Assembly (NCBI GenBank): GCA_003252535.1
Contig: QKDN01000054.1
Location: forward strand, 62,001 to 126,000
From: Campylobacterota bacterium
GTDB taxonomy: Bacteria; Campylobacterota; Campylobacteria; Campylobacterales; Sulfurovaceae
Direction: 5' to 3'
Length of the DNA stretch: 64,000 nt
The position numbers and the translations under genes were made by a program. Of the stretch, positions 1,441-60,914 are shown piece after piece. Positions within the stretch are counted from its first letter, which is position 1; each line of letters begins with the position of its first letter. Under the pieces are notes generated by a model. It saw only the letters and a list, made by a program, of their open reading frames with translations. It ran no database searches and was not told the DNA's origin.

Positions 1441-3215
1441 TGAACCCCTGGTTGCAACCGACACCGCTCAAGAGGATATTGTTTTTTGTCATTGCAGACC
1501 TGATCCTCTCACTGGCGACCTTCTACCTCTCCTACGATCTGCGGTTCAATTACGATATCCCGTCGAATTTCCTCGAAGGATTCTGGGTCTTTTTCGCCCT
1601 CCTGGTCACGCTCAAGATCGGGGCACTCTACCTCTACAAGGTCTATTTTGCCGTATGGCGGTTCTTCGCCCTCAGTGAAGCACGAAGCATCGTCGCGGCC
1701 CATGTGCTCGCCTATACGATCTTTGCGCTCGTTTACCATCTGTTCCGTGACTCTTTCGACAGTTTTCCGCGGAGCGTCCTGATCATCGACTTCTTTATCT
1801 CCCTCTTTGCCCTCGGGCTGCTGCGGATGTCCAAGAGGCTGATCATCGAGCGCAACAGGCGAAGCAGGGTCAACCCTACGCTGATCATCGGTATCGGGAC
1901 CCATACCGCCTCGACGATCAGACACGCTCTCAGCGGTGAAATAGACTATTACCCAGTCGCTATCCTCGCTGCCGACAGGAACCGACACGCGGTCAACAGC
2001 TATATAAACAATATCCGGGTCTATTCGCTCGATGACATGGAAGCGGTGATCCATGATACGGGGGCGCAGGCGGCGATATTCACCCGCGAATTCGACCAGC
2101 AGGAGCTTCGCACGATCGTCGATGAGCTTGGCCGACACGGTATCCATGAGATCAAGCAGCTGCGCCTGCTGGGGTCGGATGAGAAGCTTGAGAATGTCTC
2201 TATCGAAGACCTCCTGGCCCGTAAGCCAAAAGACCTCGATGCCAGGGCTATCGGAGATTTCATCCGGGGCAAATCGGTGCTCATCACGGGTGCCGGTGGG
2301 AGCATCGGCTCGGAGATATCGAAGCAGTGCCGCGAGTTCGGGGCAGGTGAGCTCACTCTCGTCGACAGCAGCGAGTACAATCTCTACGCGATCGGGGAGA
2401 AGCTCGGCGATGCCAGGCTCGTACTGTTGAGCGTGACCCAGAAAGAGGAGCTCGAAAAGCTCATGGCAGAGACAAAGCCCCAGATCGTCATCCACGCCGC
2501 AGCTTACAAGCACGTCCCCATCTGCGAGGCCAACCAGCTCTCAGCGATCTATAACAATATCATCGGCACCAGGAACCTCATCGATGCGGCGATCGCCAAC
2601 CACGTCCAGAAGGTGGTCGTCATCTCTACGGACAAGGCCGTACGCCCCACCAATGTCATGGGGGCGACCAAACGTGTCACCGAACTCTATGCCAACAACG
2701 TAGCGAGCGGCGATACCGAGATCGTCGCTGTGCGGTTCGGCAACGTACTGGGATCGAGCGGCAGTGTGATCCCGAAGTTCAGGGAGCAGATAGAGAGAGG
2801 CGGCCCGGTGACGGTGACCCACCCTGAGATCACGAGGTATTTCATGCTGATCTCCGAGGCGTGCCGTCTCGTCCTCCAGACCGCGGCGATCGCCCGGGGA
2901 GGAGAGCTCTTCGTCCTCGATATGGGTGAGCCGGTCAGGATCGTCGATCTCGCAAGCCAGATGATCCGCCTCTACGGCAAGGAGGGGCAGGTGAAGATAG
3001 AGTTCACCGGACTGCGCCCCGGTGAGAAGCTCTATGAAGAGCTTCTGATCGACGAGAGCGAGAAGGAGACCCAGTACAGCTCGATCTTCATCGCCTCTCC
3101 CACCCCTTACGATATCGACATGCTCAACCGTGATATCGACCACCTTCTCAAGGCAGAGGACAAGGTGGTAGCATTGCAGAAGATCGTACCGGAGTTCCAC
3201 AAAGCTCTTCATTAG
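1440..3215 (+). CDS. pglF: Membrane-bound UDP-GlcNAc 4,6-dehydratase (PglF/FlaA1-CapD family)
   Basis: 591 residues from the ATG at 1440, essentially the size known for Campylobacter PglF. This start overlaps the pglE stop; an upstream in-frame start at 1413 would lie inside pglE and is not favoured. The N-terminal 130 residues hold about four membrane helices, followed by a nucleotide-binding-like domain and then the short-chain dehydrogenase domain. There the NAD loop TGAGGSIGSEI lies near residue 284 and STDKAVRPTNVMGATK near 395-410, carrying the T-D-K catalytic set of this dehydratase branch. It would start bacillosamine synthesis by making the 4-keto-6-deoxy sugar at the cytoplasmic membrane. 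Confidence 0.9.
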   Translation: MNPWLQPTPLKRILFFVIADLILSLATFYLSYDLRFNYDIPSNFLEGFWVFFALLVTLKIGALYLYKVYFAVWRFFALSEARSIVAAHVLAYTIFALVYHLFRDSFDSFPRSVLIIDFFISLFALGLLRMSKRLIIERNRRSRVNPTLIIGIGTHTASTIRHALSGEIDYYPVAILAADRNRHAVNSYINNIRVYSLDDMEAVIHDTGAQAAIFTREFDQQELRTIVDELGRHGIHEIKQLRLLGSDEKLENVSIEDLLARKPKDLDARAIGDFIRGKSVLITGAGGSIGSEISKQCREFGAGELTLVDSSEYNLYAIGEKLGDARLVLLSVTQKEELEKLMAETKPQIVIHAAAYKHVPICEANQLSAIYNNIIGTRNLIDAAIANHVQKVVVISTDKAVRPTNVMGATKRVTELYANNVASGDTEIVAVRFGNVLGSSGSVIPKFREQIERGGPVTVTHPEITRYFMLISEACRLVLQTAAIARGGELFVLDMGEPVRIVDLASQMIRLYGKEGQVKIEFTGLRPGEKLYEELLIDESEKETQYSSIFIASPTPYDIDMLNRDIDHLLKAEDKVVALQKIVPEFHKALH

Positions 3216-16145: not shown

Positions 16146-16177
16146 CATGTGATTTTTGGATTTCTCAGAAGTTATGT

Positions 16178-16183
16178 TATAAT
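16178..16183 (+). promoter_or_regulatory. -10 box of antisense RNA promoter, cassette copy 1
   Basis: TATAAT seven bases before GTTGGGACAG. The stretch CAGAAGTTATGTTATAATA before it is identical in copy 3 on the other strand, and the same box recurs in copy 2 with eight-base spacing, so it is a conserved part of the cassette. Confidence 0.75.
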
Positions 16184-16190
16184 ACCGCCA

Positions 16191-16364
16191 GTTGGGACAG
16201 ATGAGAGAGCGCCAACTCTCTCGCCTGCTTTTAATAGACTTTTGTCGCGATAAGCAACAAAAGAATAACAATTAGGATGATTCGCTCCATTGTTACTCCT
16301 CGTTAAAGGCTGACCCTGTCCCACCTCACGCCTCGCAATGAATCCTCACATCCCAATCGCCAAC
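16191..16364 (+). ncRNA. Predicted antitoxin antisense RNA, cassette copy 1 (Sib-like)
   Basis: A transcript from the TATAAT at 16178 would begin near GTTGGGACAG and run across the whole peptide ORF on the other strand. It can form a 5' hairpin (GAGAGAG 16203-16209 with CTCTCTC 16216-16222) and a long-range stem (TGGGACAG 16193-16200 with CTGTCCCA 16316-16323). The end point is set by homology with the other copies, not by a terminator. This arrangement matches Sib RNAs of E. coli, which overlap ibs completely. RNA has not been shown here. Confidence 0.6.
16231..16290 (-). CDS. Ibs-like hydrophobic toxic peptide, copy 1 (19 aa)
   Basis: Reads MERIILIVILLLLIATKVY then TAA. The core is one short membrane-spanning run of Ile, Leu and Val, closely resembling enterobacterial Ibs peptides of 18-19 residues. 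GAGGAG (16296-16301) lies five bases before the ATG, which is strong for so short a frame. Codon changes between this copy and copy 3 leave the hydrophobic pattern and the ATKVY tail intact. It probably inserts into the inner membrane and is toxic unless the antisense RNA blocks it; toxicity is inferred from the family resemblance. Confidence 0.72.
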   Translation of the reverse strand: MERIILIVILLLLIATKVY

Positions 16365-21897: not shown

Positions 21898-21925
21898 TTT
21901 AAAGGCGGGGTCTGAACACCGTCCT

Positions 21926-22041
21926 GTAGGGTGTTGTCCCCCGACAACACCGTGATATACAGTTGTAGAAAAGTTATCAGTTTCACGGAAACATTTAGAG
22001 AATCCGTAATATGGTGGTGCTGTGAGGGCACAGCACCCTAC
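21926..22041 (+). mobile_element. MITE-like element M1 with hairpin ends
   Basis: 116 bp bounded by GTAGGGTG and CACCCTAC. Left end folds as GTGTTGTC-CCCC-GACAACAC and right end as GTGCTGTG-AGGG-CACAGCAC. Same design, inverted, at 39449-39562 and a longer version at 42898-43083. No coding capacity. Confidence 0.65.
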
Positions 22042-22113
22042 GCGAACACGATTATCCTCTTCACCCAAATCGTCACACCAACGGTATAGAAATCTCCTTT
22101 AATACTAATTCGC

Positions 22114-27033: not shown

Positions 27034-27047
27034 TCTCAAACCGCACC

Positions 27048-27126
27048 AAAAGAGAGCGCTCCTGCGCCATGCGAACGCAAGCGCCCATTTCATGGGTTGA
27101 GCGCATGGCTTCTCGCACTCTCTTTT
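27048..27126 (+). repeat. Structured leader element, copy A
   Basis: Outer stem AAAAGAGAG (27048-27056) with CTCTCTTTT (27118-27126), conserved stem CCATGCG (27067-27073) with CGCATGG (27102-27108), and inner stem CCCAT-TTC-ATGGG (27084-27096). The internal loop AACGCAAGCG is conserved in all copies except D. It ends 63 bases before hisIE and is followed by the palindrome TTTGTAC-G-GTACAAA. Confidence 0.7.
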
Positions 27127-27189
27127 GTACGGTACAAAACTTTCTGGCAACCGAGTAACGCAAGATATCATTGCCACTGACACAATAAT

Positions 27190-27867
27190 ATGGAAATCCC
27201 AATGCAAATAGACTGGAACAAAACCCCGACCATCCCCGTGATAGCGCAGGATGAAACGACCAACGAAGTACTCATGCTCGCCTATATGAACGAAGAGGCG
27301 CTCAACCTCACCCTCTCTACAGGCTTCGCCCACTACTACAGCCGCAGCCGTCAGAGACTCTGGATGAAAGGCGAGACCTCGGGACACACCCAGAAAGTGA
27401 GCGATATCCTCCTCGACTGCGACGGCGATGCGATCGTCATCAAGATCGCCCAGGAGGGGGTCGCCTGCCATACGGGGAGAAAGAGCTGCTTCTTCACCTC
27501 GCTCAAGAGCCATGAGATCGTACTCGAGCAGGAGGTCGATACGACAGCCGTCTACGGTGTGGTCGATACCCTCTACCACACCATCCTCGAGCGCAAGAGC
27601 GACACGAGCGCGACCAAATCATGGACCAAGAAGCTCCTGAACGACAAGGAGCTCCTCCTCTCCAAGATCCGTGAGGAGGCGAACGAAGTAGCCGTAGCGA
27701 TCGATGAAGAGAGCGACGAGCAGGTGATCTACGAGTCTGCTGACCTCCTCTACCACACCCTCGTGGGTCTGGGACTGCGCGAGATATCCCCCGACCGCGT
27801 CAAGCAGGAGCTTGCCCGCCGCTTCGGCATGAGCGGCATAGAGGAGAAGGAGAACCGGAAGAAGTAG
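27190..27867 (+). CDS. hisIE: Bifunctional phosphoribosyl-AMP cyclohydrolase / phosphoribosyl-ATP pyrophosphatase
   Basis: 225 residues (ATG 27190; the ATG at 27202 is an equally possible start, as neither has a strong ribosome site). HisI domain: RLWMKGETSGHTQKV, LDCDGDAIVIKIAQEGVACHTGRKSCFF with the zinc cysteines. HisE domain from about residue 120: SWTKKLLNDKELLLSKIREEANEVAVAI and YHTLVGLGL. Steps two and three of histidine synthesis. Preceded by structured element A. Confidence 0.95.
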   Translation: MEIPMQIDWNKTPTIPVIAQDETTNEVLMLAYMNEEALNLTLSTGFAHYYSRSRQRLWMKGETSGHTQKVSDILLDCDGDAIVIKIAQEGVACHTGRKSCFFTSLKSHEIVLEQEVDTTAVYGVVDTLYHTILERKSDTSATKSWTKKLLNDKELLLSKIREEANEVAVAIDEESDEQVIYESADLLYHTLVGLGLREISPDRVKQELARRFGMSGIEEKENRKK

Positions 27868-31570: not shown

Positions 31571-31745
31571 GTTGGCGATCGAGCTATGGATATCATTGTG
31601 AGGCGTGAGGTGGGACAGGGTCAGCCTTTAACGAGGAGTAACAATGAGAACCCTAATCTTGATTGTTATTCTTTTGTTGCTATTCGCGACAAAAGTCTAT
31701 TAAAAGCAGGGTTGGAGAGCGGGAACTCTCCAGCCCTGTCCCAAC
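31571..31745 (-). ncRNA. Predicted antitoxin antisense RNA, cassette copy 3 (Sib-like)
   Basis: 175-base cassette, opposite orientation to copies 1 and 2. The antisense RNA would start near GTTGGGACAG (31745 downward). Its hairpin is GGTTGGAGAG/CTCTCCAGCC (31710-31735, one mismatch), and TGGGACAG pairs with CTGTCCCA (31736-31743) as in copy 1. Between copies 1 and 3 most differences are concentrated in this hairpin and in the peptide N terminus. Confidence 0.6.
31644..31703 (+). CDS. Ibs-like hydrophobic toxic peptide, copy 3 (19 aa)
   Basis: Reads MRTLILIVILLLLFATKVY then TAA. GAGGAG at 31633-31638 lies five bases before the ATG. It differs from copy 1 mainly at residues 2-5 and at 14 (Phe for Ile) and shares LIVILLLL and ATKVY. 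The peptide is short enough to be missed by gene finders. Likely a single membrane-spanning toxin controlled by the overlapping antisense RNA. Confidence 0.72.
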   Translation: MRTLILIVILLLLFATKVY

Positions 31746-31752
31746 TGACGGT

Positions 31753-31758
31753 ATTATA
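31753..31758 (-). promoter_or_regulatory. -10 box of antisense RNA promoter, cassette copy 3
   Basis: TATAAT on the minus strand, seven bases before GTTGGGACAG, with the same 19 upstream bases as copy 1. Confidence 0.72.
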
Positions 31759-31850
31759 ACATAACTTCTGATAAATTCAAAAATCTGATAAAAAGTGTGC
31801 TTCTATCTGTTTATGCGAATTTCCGTTTGCACTTACATCGTCTATAGGAA

Positions 31851-37239: not shown

Positions 37240-37280
37240 ATGGTTATGAATTTGAAGAGAACGGATGAAGCATCCGCTCC

Positions 37281-37358
37281 AAAAGCGAGAGCTCCTGCGC
37301 CATGCGAACGCAAGCATCCATACTATGGGTTTGGCGCATGGCTTGTCGCACTCGCTTT
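37281..37358 (+). repeat. Structured leader element, copy B
   Basis: Outer AAAAGCGAG with CTCGCTTT, conserved CCATGCG (37300-37306) with CGCATGG (37335-37341), inner CCAT-ACT-ATGG. It lies between the nas promoter and the ATG at 37444, so it is in the 5' leader. The outer stem differs from copy A in a paired manner (A-T to C-G). Confidence 0.7.
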
Positions 37359-37443
37359 CGGAGAGTTCTTGCATGGCTGCTATACGCTCCCCGGAGTGTT
37401 TTAGGGTCGACCCTATATAATAATGAAATTAAAAGGATAACCA

Positions 37444-39423
37444 ATGATCAAATCGGTATGCGGCTACTGCGGGGTAGGGTGCGGGCTGGAGTATGACATG
37501 AAGTCGCTCGTGGGCGATGTGGGCTACCCGGTCAACTACGGTAACCTCTGCTCCAAGGGTGTTTCGGAACTCGTCAGTATGCAGACCCCCACCAGACTCC
37601 TGCGCCCCATGATGCGCAGCTCTGTCACAGAACCATACAGCATAAGCAGTTGGGAAGAGAGCATCTCCGCCGTCGCCGATGCGATCCGCAAAGCCCCTCG
37701 TGAGAAGATAGGGTTCTACCTCTCCGGGCAGCTCCTCACCGAGGACTACTATATAGCCAATAAACTCGTCAAAGGGTTCATCGGTACCAACAACATCGAT
37801 ACCAACAGCCGCACCTGCATGGCAAGCGCCGTCGTCGCTTACAAGAAGTCGCTCGGAGCAGACTTCGTCCCAGTACGGATGACAGATATCTTCAAGAGTG
37901 ATCTGCTGATCCTCGCGGGAGCCAATACCGCCGAAGCCCATGTGGTCTTCCACAACCAGATCAAAAAGGCGAAGAAACAGGGGCTCAAAGTGGTCGTGAT
38001 CGACCCGCGCCGCACCGACACCGCCGCCATCGCCGACCTCTACCTCCCCATCAAGCCCGGCAGCGATATCGACCTCTTCAACCTCCTCTCCAAAAGGATC
38101 ATCGATGAGGGGCTCTATGACGAGGAGTTCGCCACTCAGAAGCTCGCCAATTTCGAGAGCTTCAGGAACAAGTTCAAGCGTGTCGCCACGACCAAGATGC
38201 TCAAACGGACGGGGCTGGAGAGCGAAGAGTTCGAGGCGTTCTGGGAGCTCTACAAGAGCAGTCCCAATATCATCACCGCATGGACGATGGGGCTCAACCA
38301 GTCGGTGCAGGGGGTCGACAAGAACCTCGCCCTCATCAACACCCACCTCCTCACGGGTAAGATATTCAGGGAGGGGAACGGCCCGCTCAGCCTCACGGGA
38401 CAGCCCAACGCGATGGGGGGCAGGGAGGTCGGGGGGTTCGCCACGATGCTGGCGGTGCACCTCGGGTTCGACCCTGAGTCGGTGGAGAAGGTATCGCAGT
38501 TCTGGCAGACGGATCGGATCAGCGACAGGCCGGGGCTCACCGCCACGCAGATGCTCGGAGCCGACCTCGATGTCCTCGTCATCTGCCACACCGACCCGGT
38601 CTACCACCTCCCCAACCGCGCCAGGGTGGAGGAGCTCATCTCCCATATCCCCCTCGTGGTGGAGATCAACGCCTACGAGAACAGCGAGAGCGCCAAATAC
38701 GCCCACATCAGGCTCCCCGCCGCGCCGTGGGGGGAGAAGGAGGGGACACAGACCAACCTCGACCGCACCATCACGAAGCAGGAGAAGCTCACCCGCACCT
38801 CCATCGACTGCAAAGCAGACTGGGAGATATTCCAGCTCCTCGCGCAGCGGCTGGGGCACAGGGAGCGCTTCGACTATGCCAACCCGAGAGAGATATTCGA
38901 AGAGTATCGTGAGATGACCAGGCTCAGCGACCATCTCGACATCCACCGCGCCGACTACGAGACCCTGAACGAGCAGCCGTTCGTCTGGGGCGAGGGGATC
39001 AGGGATTTCCTCACTGCGGACAAAAAGGGGGTGCTCCACTTCGTCCAGAACGAGCTGGGGAGCGAAAAGACCAACCTAGAGTACCGCTTCCTCCTCCTCA
39101 CCGGGCGCACCCGCGACCAGTGGCACAGCGGTACCAAGACCAACCTCCCCCAGACCCTCCTCAAGTACAAAGAGCTCAACTTCTGCGAGATACACCCTGA
39201 CGATGCCGCCGAACTGGGGATACGCGACGGCGAGCAGATCAGGGTGGTCTCCCCCCGCGGCGCGATCCTCACCAAAGCCCTCGTCACCGATACGATCCGA
39301 CCCAAGTGTCTCTTCATCCCCATCTCCAACCGCGAGATCAACTACCTCACCAACGACCTCCTAGACCCCCAATCCCTCCAGCCCGACTACAACCACAGCG
39401 CGGTGAAGGTGGAGAGGGTATAA
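37444..39423 (+). CDS. nasA: Molybdopterin nitrate reductase catalytic subunit, paralogue 1 (NasA/NarB type)
   Basis: 659 residues. N-terminal [4Fe-4S] ligands CGYCGVGC (6-13) plus C in GNLCSKGV; molybdenum-ligand cysteine in DTNSRTCMASAVVAYK near residue 126. Core marks: VVIDPRRTDTAAIADLYLPIKPGSD, SLTGQPNAMGGREVGG, and the C-terminal RTRDQWHSGTKTNLP cofactor domain. Shorter than its paralogue at 49526 (768) because it lacks extra N- and C-terminal segments. No signal peptide, so cytoplasmic nitrate assimilation is expected; formate dehydrogenase is the main alternative, but neighbours favour nitrate. Confidence 0.85.
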   Translation: MIKSVCGYCGVGCGLEYDMKSLVGDVGYPVNYGNLCSKGVSELVSMQTPTRLLRPMMRSSVTEPYSISSWEESISAVADAIRKAPREKIGFYLSGQLLTEDYYIANKLVKGFIGTNNIDTNSRTCMASAVVAYKKSLGADFVPVRMTDIFKSDLLILAGANTAEAHVVFHNQIKKAKKQGLKVVVIDPRRTDTAAIADLYLPIKPGSDIDLFNLLSKRIIDEGLYDEEFATQKLANFESFRNKFKRVATTKMLKRTGLESEEFEAFWELYKSSPNIITAWTMGLNQSVQGVDKNLALINTHLLTGKIFREGNGPLSLTGQPNAMGGREVGGFATMLAVHLGFDPESVEKVSQFWQTDRISDRPGLTATQMLGADLDVLVICHTDPVYHLPNRARVEELISHIPLVVEINAYENSESAKYAHIRLPAAPWGEKEGTQTNLDRTITKQEKLTRTSIDCKADWEIFQLLAQRLGHRERFDYANPREIFEEYREMTRLSDHLDIHRADYETLNEQPFVWGEGIRDFLTADKKGVLHFVQNELGSEKTNLEYRFLLLTGRTRDQWHSGTKTNLPQTLLKYKELNFCEIHPDDAAELGIRDGEQIRVVSPRGAILTKALVTDTIRPKCLFIPISNREINYLTNDLLDPQSLQPDYNHSAVKVERV

Positions 39424-39448
39424 AGAAGTCAGTGGCGTACATATCGCC

Positions 39449-39562
39449 GTAGGGTGCTGTGTTCTCACAGCACCGAAATATTACGGATACAGAAATATTT
39501 CTGCAAAATGATTATTTTTGTATGGTTGAATATCATGGTGTTGTCGGGGGACAACACCCTAC
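39449..39562 (-). mobile_element. MITE-like element M2, inverted relative to M1
   Basis: 114 bp bounded by GTAGGGTG and CACCCTAC; left hairpin GGTGCTGTG-TTCT-CACAGCACC, right hairpin GGTGTTGTC...GACAACACC, the reverse order of M1. The interior shares the ATATTACGGAT motif with M1 and M3. Confidence 0.65.
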
Positions 39563-41134: not shown

Positions 41135-41212
41135 CGCAACCCCGCCAAAATACTTCCTCCATTCTATACAATAGAGAGTTATAATAGCGGTATATATTTA
41201 TGATAGGAGAGT
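41135..41212. repeat. 78-bp direct repeat, right copy
   Basis: Partner of 39619-39696 with one mismatch. Here it forms the real promoter and ribosome binding site of the VWA gene (TATAAT 41180-41185, AGGAGAG). Confidence 0.85.
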
Positions 41213-41217
41213 ATGAA

Positions 41218-42861
41218 ATGAAGAGATATGTATGGATGTCGCTGCTCTTTGCCGGCACGCTGCTGATGGCGGAGGCGCAGCGGGCGATGATAGTGTTTGA
41301 CGCGTCGGGGAGTATGTGGGGGCAGATAGACGGGAAAGCCAAGATCGAGATCGCCAGGGATGCGCTAGACGGCGTAGTGCGCACATGGAATCCCGAAGTG
41401 GAGCTCGGACTCACCGTATACGGACACCGGAGCAAGGGGGACTGCAACGACATCGAGACCGTCATCCCCGTGGGCAAGGTACAGAGCGCCAGGATACTCG
41501 CAGCAGTCGAGGGTATCCAGCCCAAAGGGAAAACGCCGATCAGCCGCTCCCTCAGGATGGCTGCCGATGCACTCAAAAATACAGAGGAGAAAGCCACGGT
41601 CATCCTCATCTCGGACGGCGAGGAGACCTGCGACCCCGATCCGTGCGGCACTGCCAAAGCCCTGGAGAAAGAGGGGGTAGATTTCGTCGCGCATGTGATC
41701 GGTTTCAATGTCGACCAGAAGACCGATGCGGAGCTGGAGTGTATCGCATCGGCGACGGGAGGCGAGTACTTTTCGGTCAATAACGCTTCGGCGCTCAACA
41801 ACGCGATGAAAACCATCGCAAAGAAGGTCGAAGAGCCGAAGCCTGAGCCAAAACCAGAGGTCAAAACTCCCGAAAACCCACTCGAGATCACGGCCTCCGA
41901 GACAGAGGGAGGGAAGTGGGTCGATACGCACTATATGATCTACAACGCCGAGACTGGTCGATACATCACCTCATGCGATTCCTACAAAGACCGCGCCTGT
42001 CTCAAGCCGCTCCCGGTAGGGAAGTACCTTCTGAAAGCTACCTACAATGAGTTCAAACAGGAGCAGAATTTCGAGATCAAACCGGGTGAAACACTCAAAA
42101 TCCATGTCGTAATGGGGCAGACTGGCGAAGTGGAGATCACAGCTTCCGAGACAGAGGGCGGGAAGTGGATCGATACCCACTACATGATCTATAAAGTAGA
42201 GACCAAGAAGTACATCAATTCGTGCAGCTCCTACAAAGACCGCGCCTGTCTCAAGCAGCTCCCCGTCGGAAAATATCTCCTCAAATCTACCTACAACGAG
42301 TTCAAACAGGAGCAGAGTTTCGAGATCAGATCGGGTGAAACACTCAAAATCCATGTCGTGATGGGGCAGACGGGAGAAGTGGAGATCACAGCTTCTGAGA
42401 ATGAGGGCGGGAAGTGGATCGATACCCACTACATGATCTATAATGCAGAGACCAATAAGTACATCACCTCGTGCAGCTCATACAAAGACCGTACCGGTGT
42501 CAAGCAGCTCCCTGTAGGGAAGTATCTGCTGAAATCAACCTATGGCGATTCCAAACGAGAGCAGATCTTCGAGATCGTATCGGGCGAAACGACCAGGCTC
42601 CATATTGTCTTCCCTCCGCTACAGATCGCCGCCAGATGTGCCGATCCCAAGGCGAAAGTGGAGCACGAGATATACGCTGCCGACGGCAAAAGGGTCTACC
42701 GCAAAAGAGAATCATGCGACAAAGCGGTGAAACTCTCTCTCCCCGAGGGGAACTACACCATAGAATCCAAAGTCGATCGCTTCAAGAAAGAGATGAATTT
42801 CACTATCTCCAAAAGCTCGCCCGACCATCTCGAGATCGACCTGACACCGACGGTGGAGTAG
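41218..42861 (+). CDS. Exported VWA-domain protein with three tandem 83-residue repeats
   Basis: 547 residues from ATG 41218. Signal peptide (cut near LLMAEA), then a von Willebrand A domain with the metal site DASGSMWGQ near 28-36 and ISDGEETCDPDPCG near 135-148. A PKPEPKPEVK linker follows, then three near-identical units beginning EITASETEGGKW(V/I)DTHYMIY, each ending with VGKYLLK...GETLKIHVVMGQTG. A fourth, degenerate unit closes the protein. Each unit looks like a carboxypeptidase-regulatory-type beta-sandwich. A periplasmic or surface binding role is likely, ligand unknown. Placed next to nitrate genes but not obviously part of them. Confidence 0.82.
   Translation: MKRYVWMSLLFAGTLLMAEAQRAMIVFDASGSMWGQIDGKAKIEIARDALDGVVRTWNPEVELGLTVYGHRSKGDCNDIETVIPVGKVQSARILAAVEGIQPKGKTPISRSLRMAADALKNTEEKATVILISDGEETCDPDPCGTAKALEKEGVDFVAHVIGFNVDQKTDAELECIASATGGEYFSVNNASALNNAMKTIAKKVEEPKPEPKPEVKTPENPLEITASETEGGKWVDTHYMIYNAETGRYITSCDSYKDRACLKPLPVGKYLLKATYNEFKQEQNFEIKPGETLKIHVVMGQTGEVEITASETEGGKWIDTHYMIYKVETKKYINSCSSYKDRACLKQLPVGKYLLKSTYNEFKQEQSFEIRSGETLKIHVVMGQTGEVEITASENEGGKWIDTHYMIYNAETNKYITSCSSYKDRTGVKQLPVGKYLLKSTYGDSKREQIFEIVSGETTRLHIVFPPLQIAARCADPKAKVEHEIYAADGKRVYRKRESCDKAVKLSLPEGNYTIESKVDRFKKEMNFTISKSSPDHLEIDLTPTVE
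41884..42630 (+). repeat. Three tandem 249-bp coding repeats
   Basis: Units start with GAGATCAC at 41884, 42133 and 42382, exactly 249 bases (83 codons) apart. Units 1 and 2 are nearly identical in DNA; unit 3 diverges toward its end. Such repeats can vary in number by recombination. Confidence 0.85.
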
Positions 42862-42897
42862 GACAGGAATCTCAGAGGTGTCTGAGAAGTATCGCTC

Positions 42898-43083
42898 GTA
42901 GGGTGCTGTGCCATCACAGCACCATCACACTCATTAACAGATATATCTTCAATTTTGTACAATAGTGCATTTTGGTTTTGTCCTCGATTGTACCATGATA
43001 TTCGACCATGGAAAAATCATCAATTCAACAGAAACATTACACCATCCGTAATATTGTGGTGCCGTGAGGGCACAGCACCCTAC
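42898..43083 (+). mobile_element. MITE-like element M3 (long form)
   Basis: 186 bp from GTAGGGTGCTGTG to CACAGCACCCTAC. Both ends carry GTGCTGTG-type hairpins, unlike M1 and M2 which have one of each type; the right half shares CATCCGTAATAT with M1. It lies between convergent genes. Confidence 0.62.
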
Positions 43084-43093
43084 ACGAACAACC

Positions 43094-46154: not shown

Positions 46155-46213
46155 ACCGATATGAGAATGATCTGTATTCTGATCAAAGAATATACAAAGA
46201 CTTCTTAACTATA

Positions 46214-46302
46214 TCTCAAAAAGGTAGCGCTCCGGCGCCATGCGAACGCAAGCGCCTGTTGCACAGGTGAAGCGCATGGCTTGTCGCACTCTCTTTTTGA
46301 GA
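46214..46302 (+). repeat. Structured leader element, copy C
   Basis: Outer TCTCAAAAAG with CTTTTTGAGA (10 bp), conserved CCATGCG (46238-46244) with CGCATGG (46273-46279), inner CCTGT-TGC-ACAGG. Outer and inner arms differ wholly from copies A and B yet still pair. It lies between the nirA promoter and its ATG; the 3' arm carries a T run like an attenuator. Confidence 0.72.
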
Positions 46303-46350: not shown

Positions 46351-47946
46351 ATGGAAAAGCTGCACGAAGCCAGAGAACTGAGAAACAAAAAAAGCAATAA
46401 AGTAGAAGAGACCAAGTCCCTCAAGAGCCCGATGAGCGTCTATGGGAGACTGGATGAGATAGCCGCAGGCGGTCTGGAGAATCTCGCGGATGAGGACAGC
46501 AGCTTCTTCCTGAAGTGTTTCGGCCTCTTCCTCAAGAAGGACGGTCGCTTCATGCTCCGTATCCGTATCCCCGGCGGTCAGCTCACCCCCGCACAGGCGG
46601 TTAAGCTCGGCGAGGTGTCGCAGCGCTACGGCGAGGACTATATCGATATCACGACGCGCCAGCAGCTTGAGTTCCGTTTCCTCAGGCTCGAAGATATCGC
46701 CGTGGTGCTCCGTGAGCTCGACTCAGTGGGGATCACCACCTTCCAGACGGGGATCGACAACTTCCGCAATATCGTCACCTCCTCATTCGACGGTCTCGGC
46801 GATACCTCCATCATCGAGACGAAACCTCTCATCGACTCGATGCAGAATATCTTCCTCAAAAATGAAGAGTGGATCGGTGTACTTCCGCGCAAGTTCAACA
46901 CCGCCATCCTCGGCAACACCATCAACGACTGCAATATCTACGGTCACGACTGCTGTTTCGTCCTCGCACAGAGCGGCGAGACCAAAGGGTTCAACCTCTA
47001 CCTCGGCGGCAAGGTCGGCGTGCAGGCGGAGGATAGCGGGCTTTTCGTCCGCCCCGAAGAGGTGGTCGATACCTTCAAGGCTGTCACCAGCCTCTTCAAA
47101 GAGTATGGCTTCCGAGACAACCGTAACAAGAACAGGCTCCACTACCTCCTCGAAGCAGTCGGGATGGATGCCTTCGTCAATGCGATCAGGTCGCAGAGCG
47201 GTCTTGACTACCTCCCCGGCGGCGAGCTCCTCGCGACCAATGAGTATGTCCTCGACGAGAGCGGTCTCTTCACCCTCGACAGCGAGACAAGAGCGGTGCA
47301 CCTGAGCGTCCCGAGCGGTATCTTCAAGGGGAGCGACCTCGCCGAGATCGGGAGACTGGCGCAGGGTGTGGATGGCGCGATACGCCTGAGCGTCGAGCAG
47401 AGCCTCTATATCGTCACCGACGCGGCAAAGGTGATGATGATCAAGAACTCCGATATCTACAACCGATACGAGACCTATCAGAACATCTATTTCAACCACC
47501 AGATCGCCTGTGCGGGGACGGCGACCTGCGCCTTCGCCGTGATCCCCAACAAACCCGATGCGATAGAGATGGCGGAGTACCTCCAGAGAGAGGTTCCTAT
47601 CGCAGGGGGCAAGGTGCGGATGTACTGGTCTGCCTGCCCCAAAGGGTGCGGTATCCACGGCGTGGCCGATATCGGTTTCGAGGGGTGCAAAGCCAAGGAT
47701 GAGAGCGGCGAGAGGGTCGACGGCGTCCATATCTTCCTCGGCGGCAAGGCGACCAGGGGAGCGCAGGAGGCGCGCATCCTCTACAAGTCCCTGCCGCTGG
47801 GCGCAGCACAGGAGAAGGTGAAGCTCCTCATGGAGTGCTACAGGGACGAGCGGAAGAGCGGCGAGAGCTTCGAGTGTTTCGACAGCCGCGTCTTCTCGGC
47901 ACTCAGTACGGAAGAGATCGTAGCCAAGATAGAGAGAGCGTCATGA
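46351..47946 (+). CDS. nirA: Ferredoxin-type assimilatory nitrite reductase
   Basis: 531 residues. Reduces nitrite to ammonium with siroheme and [4Fe-4S]. Cofactor cysteines are CAGTATC (CX5C) near 390 and CPKGCG (CX3C) near 430; ferrite-reductase half-domains begin GGLENLADEDSSFFLKCFGLF and DYIDITTRQQLEFRFL. The arginine/lysine siroheme residues fall in RKFNTAILGN and the IYGHDCCFV region. First gene of a four-gene unit ending in cysG; its stop overlaps the next ATG. Confidence 0.93.
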   Translation: MEKLHEARELRNKKSNKVEETKSLKSPMSVYGRLDEIAAGGLENLADEDSSFFLKCFGLFLKKDGRFMLRIRIPGGQLTPAQAVKLGEVSQRYGEDYIDITTRQQLEFRFLRLEDIAVVLRELDSVGITTFQTGIDNFRNIVTSSFDGLGDTSIIETKPLIDSMQNIFLKNEEWIGVLPRKFNTAILGNTINDCNIYGHDCCFVLAQSGETKGFNLYLGGKVGVQAEDSGLFVRPEEVVDTFKAVTSLFKEYGFRDNRNKNRLHYLLEAVGMDAFVNAIRSQSGLDYLPGGELLATNEYVLDESGLFTLDSETRAVHLSVPSGIFKGSDLAEIGRLAQGVDGAIRLSVEQSLYIVTDAAKVMMIKNSDIYNRYETYQNIYFNHQIACAGTATCAFAVIPNKPDAIEMAEYLQREVPIAGGKVRMYWSACPKGCGIHGVADIGFEGCKAKDESGERVDGVHIFLGGKATRGAQEARILYKSLPLGAAQEKVKLLMECYRDERKSGESFECFDSRVFSALSTEEIVAKIERAS

Positions 47947-56090: not shown

Positions 56091-57224
56091 ATGAAAAGCA
56101 GTGTATTGATCGTGGGCGGCGGTGTAGCAGGGTTGATGATGAAGAACAGGCTCGAAGCGCTCGGGTACGAGCCGATCCTCGCCGAGAAGGGCGAAAGGCT
56201 CCGCGCGGAGGGGGCAGGGCTGCTGCTCGGTGCCAATGTGGTGAAACTCTTCGGTGATATTGGGCTGAAGGAGAAACTTCTCGCACAAAGCCGTATACTG
56301 AAACGGCTCGTCTCCACGGATGAGAACGGGAAGGAGATAGGGCGGATCGACCTCCAGAAGATCGAAGAGCGGAGCGGCTATGCGACCGTGACGATCCATC
56401 GCCACCTCCTCCACGAACTGCTGAGCAGGAGTGTCGACCAGGGTACCATCCGCCTCTCCCACAGGCTCCAGAGTCTCAGGAAAGTGGAGAACGGGTACGA
56501 AGCGGTGTTCGGGAACGGTACCGCGGAGCGCTACGACCATGTCATCGGGGCGGACGGTCTCTATTCGCGTGTTCGTGAAGAACTTTTCGGCGAAGTCGGG
56601 ATCGTATCGAGCATGCAGGGGTGCTGGCGTTTCGTGATAGATACGCCTGAGGGGTTCGACAGCACTGCCGCCTATGAGATGTGGGGCGATCAGAAGCGCG
56701 TAGGGATGTTCCCGCTCGGGGAGGGGAAACTCTACTGCTTCCTCGTCACGACGCTCCGTGGAGGAGAAGAGAACCTCGGGTTCGAAGAGATACTGCGGAT
56801 GTTCGAAGAGTTCCGCGGCGAGTGGCCGTCGGTGTCGCAGCATATCGACATCACTTCGACGGAGCTGCTGTATGGGGTGCTGGCGGACACAGCGGAGATC
56901 ACCCTCCAGAAGGACGGCGTCGTTCTCCTCGGCGACGCAGCCCATGCCACCACGCCCAATATGGGGCAGGGGGCGGCTATGGGGATGGAGAGCGCGATCG
57001 TCTTCGCAAAGCTGCTGGAGGAGCACGGCTGGGATGAGGCGGTCAAACTTTATGAGACGAAACGGTATAATAAAGTCAAACAGATACGCGACAAATCAAG
57101 GCTCTTTGGCAAGATATCCCATCTCCCCTCCCCATGGATGCGGAGCGTGCGGAATTTCATCTTCAGGATCATCCCTGACAGCGTGATGGAAAAAGAGCTG
57201 GAGCGAAGTATCTTCGACGAATAA
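56091..57224 (+). CDS. FAD-dependent aromatic-ring-type monooxygenase
   Basis: 377 residues from ATG 56091, six bases after AAAGGA; the ATG at 56088 is too close to that site. FAD-binding VLIVGGGVAGLMMKNRLEALG, the DG motif in VIGADGLYSRVRE near 160, and the GD motif VVLLGDAAHATTPNMGQGAAMGMESA near 280-305 place it in the PHBH group, which includes TetX-like drug-inactivating enzymes. Substrate unknown; TetR control suggests it handles an inducer compound. Confidence 0.88.
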   Translation: MKSSVLIVGGGVAGLMMKNRLEALGYEPILAEKGERLRAEGAGLLLGANVVKLFGDIGLKEKLLAQSRILKRLVSTDENGKEIGRIDLQKIEERSGYATVTIHRHLLHELLSRSVDQGTIRLSHRLQSLRKVENGYEAVFGNGTAERYDHVIGADGLYSRVREELFGEVGIVSSMQGCWRFVIDTPEGFDSTAAYEMWGDQKRVGMFPLGEGKLYCFLVTTLRGGEENLGFEEILRMFEEFRGEWPSVSQHIDITSTELLYGVLADTAEITLQKDGVVLLGDAAHATTPNMGQGAAMGMESAIVFAKLLEEHGWDEAVKLYETKRYNKVKQIRDKSRLFGKISHLPSPWMRSVRNFIFRIIPDSVMEKELERSIFDE

Positions 57225-57240
57225 AGGGCACCTCAAAAAC

Positions 57241-57334
57241 CCACTCAAAATACAAATATTCCTGCGCCATACGAACGCTTTTCCCCTTTTCAAGGGTTGA
57301 GCGCACTGCTTGTCACATTTGTTTTTGAGTTTGG
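57241..57334 (+). repeat. Structured leader element, copy D (degenerate)
   Basis: CTGCGCCATACGAACGC then CAAGGGTTGAGCGCACTGCTTGTC. The middle stem is weakened (CCATACG versus CGCACTG), but the long outer stem (CTCAAAATACAAAT with ATTTGTTTTTGAG) and inner CCCTT/AAGGG remain. It lies 38 bases before tetR. Confidence 0.58.
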
Positions 57335-57372
57335 GTATAGTTTTTAGAGATGCCCTAAAGTGAAGGATAGCA

Positions 57373-57942
57373 TTGTCATCATCAACCAGGGAGAAAATAC
57401 TCGATACCGCCTTATCGCTGTTCAATGCGAGCGGGACAAGGCCGGTCACGACGAACCATATAGCCAAAGAGTGCGGCATAGGGATGGGGAATCTCTACCA
57501 CTACTTCAGGAACAAAGAGGATATCATCCGGACCCTTTACAACCGGATGGGGGAGGAGTGGGACTCGCAGGCGCTCGGGGTAGAGAAGATGACGATGGAG
57601 GTGTTCGGGCAGATCAGGGAGCATTCGGACAGCCTCTTCGTGAAGTACCGCTTCATCCACGATGAGCTCTACACCCTCTGCCGGATCGACCCGGAGCTCG
57701 CAGCGCTCAACCGCGAGAGGCTGATCCTCCGCAAAGCCCAGACAAAAGGGCTCATCCTTGCACTGATCAGGGATGAGGAGTTCGAACCGCTGGGTGAGCG
57801 GGAGCTCGAGCTGCTCATCGATACGATATGGATGTACGCGATATTCTGGCACCCCTACCGGGAGATGCTCTCGGAGGGTGGAGCGGCTGCCGCACCGGAT
57901 TTCGACCGGCTGATCATGAAGTTCCTGGTCAGGAAGCAGTGA
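57373..57942 (+). CDS. TetR/AcrR-family transcriptional regulator
   Basis: 189 residues from TTG 57373 with AAGGAT six to eight bases upstream. N-terminal helix-turn-helix TTNHIAKECGIGMGNLYHYFRNKEDIIRTLYNRM near 26-59. The C-terminal ligand domain is all-helical. It probably binds the two TGGAGTA-TACTCCA operators upstream of the monooxygenase and so regulates both genes. Confidence 0.87.
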   Translation: MSSSTREKILDTALSLFNASGTRPVTTNHIAKECGIGMGNLYHYFRNKEDIIRTLYNRMGEEWDSQALGVEKMTMEVFGQIREHSDSLFVKYRFIHDELYTLCRIDPELAALNRERLILRKAQTKGLILALIRDEEFEPLGERELELLIDTIWMYAIFWHPYREMLSEGGAAAAPDFDRLIMKFLVRKQ

Positions 57943-59392: not shown

Positions 59393-60914
59393 CGGGGCTC
59401 CTTGTGATGGGGATGGTGATGACGAAGGTCGCTCCTCTGTCGCTGTTGTGGGCGTTGAGCGTGCCGTGCATGTGCTTGCGGATGATCTCCTGCGAGATGT
59501 GCAGACCGATCCCCGTGCCGCCGGACTCCTTGGTCGTGAAGTAGGGCTCGAATATCTTGTCGAGATACTCCCGGCTGATCCCGCCTGCGTTGTCGCTGAT
59601 CTCGCAACAGAGGCTCTCCTCTCTGCGGTAGAGTCTGATATCGATCTGCGGGTTGGGGGTAGCCCGCTCGATGAGGACATCCTTGGCGTTGGAGACGAGG
59701 TTGAGGATCACCTGTGAGAACTCGTTGGGGTAGCCATAGGTGACGAGCCCTTCCTCCGAGTCGAGCAGCAACCTGATGTTCCTGTTCTGGAGGGTCGCTT
59801 CGAGGATATTGCAGGCGCGTTTCACCTCTGCGGTGAGGTCGAACTCCTCTTTTTCCTTATTTGGTTTGAAGAAGTTGCTGAAGTCGTCGATGGTGCGCGA
59901 CATATAGCCGAGCTGTTCATTCGCTTCGTCCATGTGCCGGTCGAGGAACTCCCTGTCGACGCCGTTGGCTATAGCTGTCCACTTGATGTTCATCATGATG
60001 GCGCTCACGGCGCTGATGGGCTGGCGCCACTGGTGGGCGATATTGCCGATCATCTCGCCGAGCGCTGCGAGCCTGGACTGGCGGATGAGGAGGTTCTCTT
60101 TTTCCCTCTGCTTCTCCACCTCCTCTCTGACCCGGTTGTGGAGCGTCTGGTTGAACTCATCGAGCTCGGTGACCTTCGCTTCGAGCGAGGTGTTGAGTGA
60201 GGATATCTTCTTCTCGTCGGCGTATTTGATCCGCTGGTGGATGATGAGGGTGAGGATCGCACCGATGGAAGCGATCAGCAGGAAGAGGATCGTCTGCTCC
60301 CTGTCGCGGCTGATGGCGCCGAGCTGCTTGGACTCCTCGGAGATATCGAAGATGACGCTGATACCGCCGCGGATATCGCCCACCTTGTACCCCTGTTTCT
60401 TGTGGCAGACGAGGCACTCCTTCTCTGTCCTGAGCGCGCCCATGAAGCGGAAATCGTTCTCCTTGATGTTCCAGTAGTATTTCGCATCGGGGTTGGAGCG
60501 GAAGTACTCGAGTATCTTCTTCTCATCTTCGTCGGGGGCGTTGTGTTTGTTGATGAGCTTGTCGCTAGTGATCTTGAGCTTGAATCCGTCACGGCGGCTG
60601 GCGATATCGGATATCTGGCGGGTCATAAATGCGGGGTTGACCCATACGAGCGTTTCGTTCTTGTCCGATCTGATGAAATTGGGCTTGAGATAGGGGTTGG
60701 GTGCAAGCTTCTCGGTCTTGAGATAGACGCCGTCATAGGCGGCGTTCCAATGGCGCATATCGACGATGAGGTCGAAGATCGCTATCGCTTTGTTCTTGAG
60801 ACTCTCGTGGAGGAGGGTCTCCTGGGCGGTATAGGTCTTGTTGACCGTCGTCCCTATGATCAGGAAGAGCGACAATAGAAAGAAGATAAAGAGATAGATG
60901 ATCGACTTTTTGAT
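59364..60914 (-). CDS. Sensor histidine kinase with heme-binding (DUF3365-type) periplasmic domain
   Basis: 516 residues if translation starts at the ATC at 60912-60914. AAAGGAG lies five bases before that codon and TATAAT (60933-60938) about 18 bases before it; the only upstream ATG (60989) is before this promoter and has no ribosome site. Helix near 5-22, periplasmic domain with CLVCH, a CXXCH heme c motif, near 165-170, second helix near 210-232, coiled coil, then H-box GNIAHQWRQPIS and ATPase motifs NLVSNAKDVL, DNAGGI, GGTGIGL. It probably senses redox state or a heme ligand. The last 29 bases overlap the regulator gene. Confidence 0.85.
   Translation of the reverse strand: MKKSIIYLFIFFLLSLFLIIGTTVNKTYTAQETLLHESLKNKAIAIFDLIVDMRHWNAAYDGVYLKTEKLAPNPYLKPNFIRSDKNETLVWVNPAFMTRQISDIASRRDGFKLKITSDKLINKHNAPDEDEKKILEYFRSNPDAKYYWNIKENDFRFMGALRTEKECLVCHKKQGYKVGDIRGGISVIFDISEESKQLGAISRDREQTILFLLIASIGAILTLIIHQRIKYADEKKISSLNTSLEAKVTELDEFNQTLHNRVREEVEKQREKENLLIRQSRLAALGEMIGNIAHQWRQPISAVSAIMMNIKWTAIANGVDREFLDRHMDEANEQLGYMSRTIDDFSNFFKPNKEKEEFDLTAEVKRACNILEATLQNRNIRLLLDSEEGLVTYGYPNEFSQVILNLVSNAKDVLIERATPNPQIDIRLYRREESLCCEISDNAGGISREYLDKIFEPYFTTKESGGTGIGLHISQEIIRKHMHGTLNAHNSDRGATFVITIPITRSPDATSRTAQK

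Follow-up and report, generated by a model that had tools for sequence, protein, structure and literature searches.

A covarying hairpin repeat in a Campylobacterota genome is a miniature inverted-repeat transposable element with an apparent structural signal on its minus strand

A structured repeat found four times in a 64,000-nucleotide stretch of a Campylobacterota genome (family Sulfurovaceae), referred to here as the window, is a miniature inverted-repeat transposable element (MITE) that is approximately 130 bp in length and putatively non-coding. It is likely that one explanation covers its ends, its distribution and its fold, namely that a MITE producing a 4-bp duplication inserts mostly near gene starts while its hairpin is selected on the minus strand by way of the element's own spread. 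Structured repeats that precede genes are easily mistaken for regulatory RNAs, and the preliminary description of the window had considered such a role for this one.

Copies within the window

Four related elements had been described on the plus strand at window positions 27048, 37281, 46214 and 57241, and all four are present there. The first core motif, with up to three mismatches allowed, is found at 27062, 37295, 46233 and 57262 and the second core motif at 27101, 37334, 46272 and 57301, all on the plus strand. One extra three-mismatch match of the first motif lies at 60742 on the minus strand. As many matches were reached in none of 100 shuffled sequences. Each copy can be folded as a long hairpin with stems that are unlike in sequence from copy to copy yet still paired, as had been proposed.

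The hairpin cores of copies 1, 2 and 3 occupy 27041–27130 (108.6 bits), 37274–37363 (100.5 bits) and 46212–46301 (97.9 bits) of the plus strand, and in none of the three are both ends within five mismatches of the terminal inverted repeats presented below. On the same strand, copy 1 is followed by hisIE (PRA-CH and PRA-PH; 27190–27867), copy 2 by a molybdopterin oxidoreductase (37444–39423) and copy 3 by a nitrite/sulphite reductase (46351–47946), as judged from open reading frames and Pfam. The core of copy 4 (57241–57330, plus strand; R1 match of 77.8 bits) had been called degenerate. It is indeed the most diverged of the four cores, but copy 4 is also the sole window copy with intact ends and TAAA on both sides. 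From terminal repeat matches at C49:119226–119241 and C49:119340–119355, converted to window coordinates, the complete element spans 57226–57355 on the plus strand (130 bp), with the left terminal repeat GGGCACCTCAAAAACC at 57226–57241 and the right terminal repeat at 57340–57355, which reads GGGCATCTCTAAAAAC on the minus strand. The exact 4-bp target-site duplication TAAA is located at 57222–57225 and 57356–57359. A TetR-type regulator (57373–57942, plus strand) lies downstream by the same open reading frame and Pfam evidence. According to Pfam, the functions of the genes beside the four copies are unrelated to each other.

The window contains other repeats. A second palindromic repeat that resembles GTAG-tagged REPs (GTAGGGTGCTGTG...CACAGCACC and relatives) is present in both orientations at 21925–22048, 39448–39562 and 42897–43090. 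An inverted-repeat pair of approximately 190 bp, separated by 15 kb (16151–16341 and 31593–31785), has three blocks that are 93–98% complementary, and 249-nt tandem repeats at 41884–42459 lie within an open reading frame at 41200–42861.

Ends, target duplications and an empty site

When the better-kept copies were aligned with their flanks, terminal inverted repeats of the form GGGCAYCTCTAAAAAC were identified. Both ends have at most five mismatches in 35 of the 62 strong copies from the host genome, leaving 27 copies that lack two such ends. The length of the element in these 35 copies is 129–133 bp in 33 cases and exactly 130 or 131 bp in 27. An exact 4-bp target duplication is present around 13 of the 35 copies, compared with 1.03 when the partners were shuffled; duplications of 5 to 8 bp were found around none of the same 35.

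Two relatives, G070 and G075, carry a second end type (GAGTGCTCTGAAAAAC / GAACCCTCTGAAAAAT). Among the 20 copies fetched from these genomes, all of which enter the duplication figures, 15 have both ends with at most five mismatches and each of the 15 is 131 bp in length. An exact 4-bp duplication is present in 13 of the 15 versus 4.3 with shuffled partners, a value that is high because the target sites are alike and are often AATT.

An empty site was observed at the one locus tried, which is filled in G070 and empty in G075. The G075 sequence aligned with the joined G070 flanks over 319 gapless bases (query 286–604, 98% identity), crossing the junction at 300/301. The run extends only 15 bases leftward from the junction, since G075 has a second insertion at that point, and the left flank resumes beyond it (query 1–290, 94%). 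At the same locus in G074 and G068 the element is absent and the spacer is too divergent for the junction to be read. The repeat is short and multi-copy (approximately 130 bp, 62 strong copies), as is expected of a MITE, and its terminal inverted repeats, its 4-bp target-site duplications and the single empty site in a relative therefore establish it as a transposable element.

Some related elements depart from this form. A 265-bp element with similar ends has a different interior (L136 1045–1309; G000:C1:49944–50208), and elements of 265–290 bp at L242, L259 and L292 have the same ends and strong predicted folds. At L137 from 1632 (G000:C67:3631), a half copy retains an intact left end, the arm and the start of the core and then continues as unrelated sequence.

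Fold and covariation

Within the terminal repeats, the element consists of one long hairpin that may be considered in terms of three parts. The outer stem is variable but well matched; it changes considerably among copies and genera and stays complementary. The other two parts change little between copies. One is an asymmetric internal loop that is conserved (plus strand, CTCYKGC / TTTGTCGCA, with variants) and the other is an inner hairpin in which GCRAACGCAAGCGCCC and GGGTTGRGYGC, each with variants, enclose the loop.

The preliminary description had proposed covariation as a measure by which the fold could be judged. A set of 26 copies from five genomes (set A3) was chosen for diversity out of 83 matched copies, with three antisense self-matches excluded from the copy matches. 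In this set, 92.3% of the cells are paired compared with 64.1% after shuffling, and the covariation score of 0.695 stands well above the shuffled mean of 0.179 and the slid controls (at most 0.183). Two-sided changes are present at 21 of the 27 pairs. There were 52 further pair types, a value that 50 of 500 shuffles reached, and this measure alone is therefore indecisive. The covarying hairpin is genuine.

In a copy at L140 (approximately 1455–1531, minus strand), which has a left end, the two stem arms are directly adjacent and the core is missing, as would result from a deletion across a hairpin formed in DNA. A different core is found between the same GGGCACCTCTAAAAAC ends in several other phyla (L256, L262, L265, L277, L283, L289, L297 and L299). 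Its pattern is CGGAG or similar, a variable stem and TGAGSAT, inside variable outer stems, and eight of the 11 pattern matches are alike by eye.

The probable folding strand

Where selection acts on a folded single strand, G.U (or G.T) pairs are better tolerated than A.C. On the plus strand of the host copies, A.C and C.A states fill 78 cells while G.T and T.G states fill 23. When counted as parsimony events that start from Watson-Crick pairs, 63 lead to A.C and 20 to G.T, an asymmetry with p = 2.4e-6 if the events are independent; independence is only partial. The parsimony tree was built from approximately 90 columns, and the copies are not independent. Two controls were free of asymmetry: the terminal repeats of 35 copies had 37 A.C versus 35 G.T, and in the unpaired columns there were 25 G>A and 29 C>T changes. 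An excess of A.C over G.T on the plus strand therefore corresponds to tolerated wobble pairs on the minus strand. Among 111 copies from other genomes, 30 A.C cells were counted versus 8 G.T, many of them shared by descent. Without the three pairs adjacent to the loop the asymmetry becomes 37:18, and much of the signal thus comes from those pairs. Mismatch states that are confined to a single copy (8 A.C, 12 G.T) have no asymmetry.

Across 173 copies, the triloop is TNC on the plus strand, or GNA on the minus strand, in 139 of 156 cases and GNA on the plus strand in none. Calculated RNA energies favor the minus strand in 54 of 62 host copies and 18 of 21 related copies, whereas DNA energies favor it only weakly (40 of 62 and 10 of 21, respectively). 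Very stable DNA mini-hairpins are reported for GNA loops on G-C stems (PMC4686876). This stability is not directly transferable because the closing pair here is mostly T-A.

The preliminary description had read the structure on the plus strand. From the mismatch states, the triloops and the RNA folding, the structural signal appears instead on the complement, and it is there that structural selection seems to act. The selected molecule would be a single strand, with RNA slightly favored over single-stranded DNA. When the terminal repeats are used as an internal control, counts of A.C and G.T states give an indication of the folding strand, and the approach could be extended to other palindromic MITEs.

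Family size and distribution

A covariance model built from 13 copies (R1) identified 62 strong copies (E of 7.6e-16 or better) and two weak copies (1.4e-5 and 2.0e-5) in the 2.92 Mb host genome. The two weakest copies (C12:128229 and C23:9310) were excluded from the statistics of pairs, ends and loops and kept in the count of gene contexts, which totals 64. The exact core word CATGCGAACGC occurs 43 times in this genome (27 forward, 16 reverse) and a control word does not occur. The host copies also split into two types according to a block variant, AAGCG or TTTTC, beside the inner stem.

Among relatives, R1 found copies in five of 41 genomes, including that of the host. A search of related genomes with a covariance model, as had been suggested at the outset, was extended with a second model (R2; 26 copies from five genomes) and revealed copies in 59 of 175 genomes of the host's family, again including its own, and in nine of 11 genera. 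At most 24 candidates were scored per genome, so the copy numbers in relatives are lower bounds. Class-wide, 12 of 397 genomes matched, five of which lie outside the host's family in two other families; their matches are weak (best E of 1e-6 to 2e-4) and two cover the inner part only. At L193, L194 and L195, which are weak matches from two further families within the order, much of the inner hairpin is retained (GCAAACGCAAGCGCC...GGGTTGAGTGC or close to it), with different, AT-rich sequence around it.

A scan of viral contigs with one inner-core pattern gave no matches, and none were found by distant blastn of plasmid and of phage records with one copy each. Rfam, to which the preliminary description had pointed for comparison, gave no match above the gathering threshold in the window; at permissive thresholds, the loci of three relatives and copy 1 gave only matches far below the gathering scores. 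Within the open-licence literature, no description of the element was found by title and no paper was found with the letters of the terminal repeat as the query.

Genomic placement

Gene context was obtained from a simple, unvalidated gene finder, and orientation was counted without the 14 of the 64 copies that overlap open reading frames. The other 50 are intergenic, with 19 in divergent, 27 in tandem and four in convergent spacers. The element had been described as always lying on the strand of its downstream gene. This is true of all four window copies but not of the genome, where the tandem spacers hold 16 sense and 11 antisense copies (p = 0.44); an orientation rule of this kind was tested and dropped. 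A same-strand gene comes next downstream for 35 of the 50 intergenic copies, and for 15 it does not. In divergent spacers the sense gene is nearer (median 32 versus 94), a difference that is non-significant (p = 0.40).

Random orientation or a position between convergent genes had been named as evidence against a structured RNA. The orientation in tandem spacers has no significant bias. Convergent spacers are avoided, with four copies seen versus 11 to 13.6 expected, and this part of the test favors the preliminary description. Relative to the other spacers of the same stretches, divergent spacers are favored and convergent spacers avoided (p = 0.0003 by number, 0.0002 by bases). This pattern is better explained by insertion near gene starts, or by the loss of harmful insertions from other places, than by a regulator in sense leaders.

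Candidate transposases

An autonomous insertion sequence (IS) with the element's own ends was not found in the host genome. A missing autonomous partner is common among MITEs and, for that reason, its absence from the same genome was not taken as excluding a MITE. Draft assemblies can also lose multi-copy IS. In Candidatus Sulfurimonas ponti (L231), an exact pair of GGGCACCTCTAAAAAC ends, 1254 bp apart, flanks the gene for a 342-aa protein that has DUF772 and DDE_Tnp_1 domains; no exact target duplication was found around this IS. In genome G085 (L196), an IS of approximately 1.27 kb has GAACCCTCTGAWWAACC ends of the second type, a TATT duplication and a 336-aa DUF772 and DDE_Tnp_1 protein. 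A transposase of this composition in approximately 1.2 kb with a 4-bp duplication is what we take to be IS5-like; the domains and the length are shared by L231 and L196, and the exact 4-bp duplication is present at L196 only. From the identical ends in another organism, a transposase of this kind may act on the element. A search of 38 loci with R2, among them the IS of L231 and L196, did not detect the hairpin core, and the core was therefore not simply cut down from those two IS.

The only host protein with DUF772 and DDE_Tnp_1 (464 aa) is encoded on contig C50 and is flanked by ends TAGTCSCCCCWGAAAAACCC that are 1534 bp apart and match the ends of the element in their inner part only. The C50 IS might be a distant mover of the element. 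TAGTC-type ends are present both there and at L205, with the inner part alone in common with the element. Judged from these ends, the local mover may be missing, lost, within an assembly gap, or the more distant C50 IS. Among the transposase loci searched for ends, only L196 has a pair close to the second end type. Of 20 relatives searched with PF01609, 13 gave no match and seven gave 24 matches, and PF05598 was without a match in 10 of 15 genomes searched. A scan of public genomes for GGGCACCTCTAAAAAC returned at least 118 stretches. Among the 80 matches listed, 37 have an inverted GGGCACCTCTAAAAAC pair (at most two mismatches) with a spacing of 60–2600 bp; these 37 are mostly spaced by 85–290 bp and belong to many phyla by record title.

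Explanation and alternatives

In the favored explanation, an IS5-like transposase would mobilize the element in trans, and insertion would leave a 4-bp duplication, mostly in spacers that adjoin gene starts. Selection would act on the minus-strand fold as a single strand and would work through the element's own spread rather than through one host gene. Arm-to-arm copying during replication may add to the match between the arms, and would leave the strand-specific features unexplained.

The preliminary description had offered two guesses. One was a cis-regulatory leader RNA, similar to a riboswitch, with a sense-strand fold that controls same-strand genes. The window itself invites this reading since all four copies are sense leaders, covariation is strong and, across the genome, a same-strand gene is next downstream of 35 of 50 intergenic copies with convergent spacers avoided. 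It is nonetheless highly improbable as a gene-specific regulator: the tandem copies are divided 16 to 11 (p = 0.44), the window copies precede unrelated genes, the element has terminal repeats and target duplications, no Rfam match was obtained, and both the mismatch asymmetry and the triloop indicate the other strand. The other guess, a REP-like element preserved for folding, came nearer in that the element is structured, covarying and kept for its fold. Taken literally as a REP/REPIN-type palindrome that a Y1 (RAYT) transposase mobilizes in single-stranded DNA form, it would account for an imperfect palindrome with conserved mispaired bases, and compensatory changes are described as common in REPINs (PMC3116915). 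The 4-bp target duplications and terminal repeats of the well-kept copies speak against it, as does the lack of a GTAG or CGTC end tag in the copies inspected by eye, and we regard it as very unlikely. To our knowledge, transposition of the IS200/IS605 type yields neither 4-bp target duplications nor terminal repeats.

It is also conceivable that covariation is a by-product of DNA copying, with template switching transferring one arm of the palindrome onto the other and no folded molecule under selection. In its favor, two-sided changes are numerous and there are few wobble states, and approximately 71 events from one Watson-Crick pair to another were counted against approximately 20 from Watson-Crick to G.T; the L140 copy, with its arms adjacent and core lost, suggests that the hairpin does form in DNA. 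Template switching does not predict a conserved asymmetric internal loop, a GNA triloop on one strand only, or a mismatch asymmetry that is present within the hairpin and absent from the terminal repeats. As the whole explanation it is unlikely, and it may act alongside selection.

Two other candidates were set aside. An intrinsic terminator was dropped by eye from copies of the G013 type, in which A-runs close the 3' arms, and an attC-like site was dropped with the inner part conserved here and the outer stem variable.

Covariation of the element is very strong and yet its ends, duplications and orientation are those of a transposon; covariation alone is therefore no proof of a host regulator. 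A wider proposal, which we advance tentatively and hold to be more doubtful than probable, is that the minus strand of the MITE harbors a novel structured non-coding RNA, or a fold of single-stranded DNA, which the element needs for its own propagation. On this view, transposons sharing its ends have gained different conserved folded cores across phyla, and folding of a single strand may be a target of selection in MITEs as a class. If it is true that transposition needs the minus-strand fold, it would be a requirement that we have not seen described for non-autonomous transposons.

Comparison with known systems

ERIC sequences have a length of 127 bp. They would be set apart from the window's element by sequence, hosts and ends. 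In other respects the two are alike, ERIC being a palindromic, intergenic MITE of similar size with tens to hundreds of copies per genome; 30 copies are given for E. coli K-12 and 150 for Salmonella LT2 (PMC10969869). With REPs and REPINs (PMC3116915), the element shares short dispersed palindromes and a hairpin kept through compensatory changes. It differs from them in having terminal repeats, 4-bp duplications and a DDE-type IS with the same ends, and no GTAG or CGTC tag was seen; by what its ends show, it appears not to be a REP. CGTC-tagged palindromes are listed for Sulfurovum sp. NBC37-1, among others, as 20–40 bp units for which the authors report no dedicated transposase (PMC3733652). 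These are also short palindromic repeats, and the 20–40 bp unit and the CGTC tag set them apart.

The MITEs of IS5-like IS with GGGCACCTCTAAAAAC ends have their ends in common with the element and, in some, a 4-bp duplication. They differ in their interior: R2 did not find the inner core of the window's element in any of the 38 loci searched. A conserved core with a strand-specific signal is what sets this element apart from known structured MITEs.
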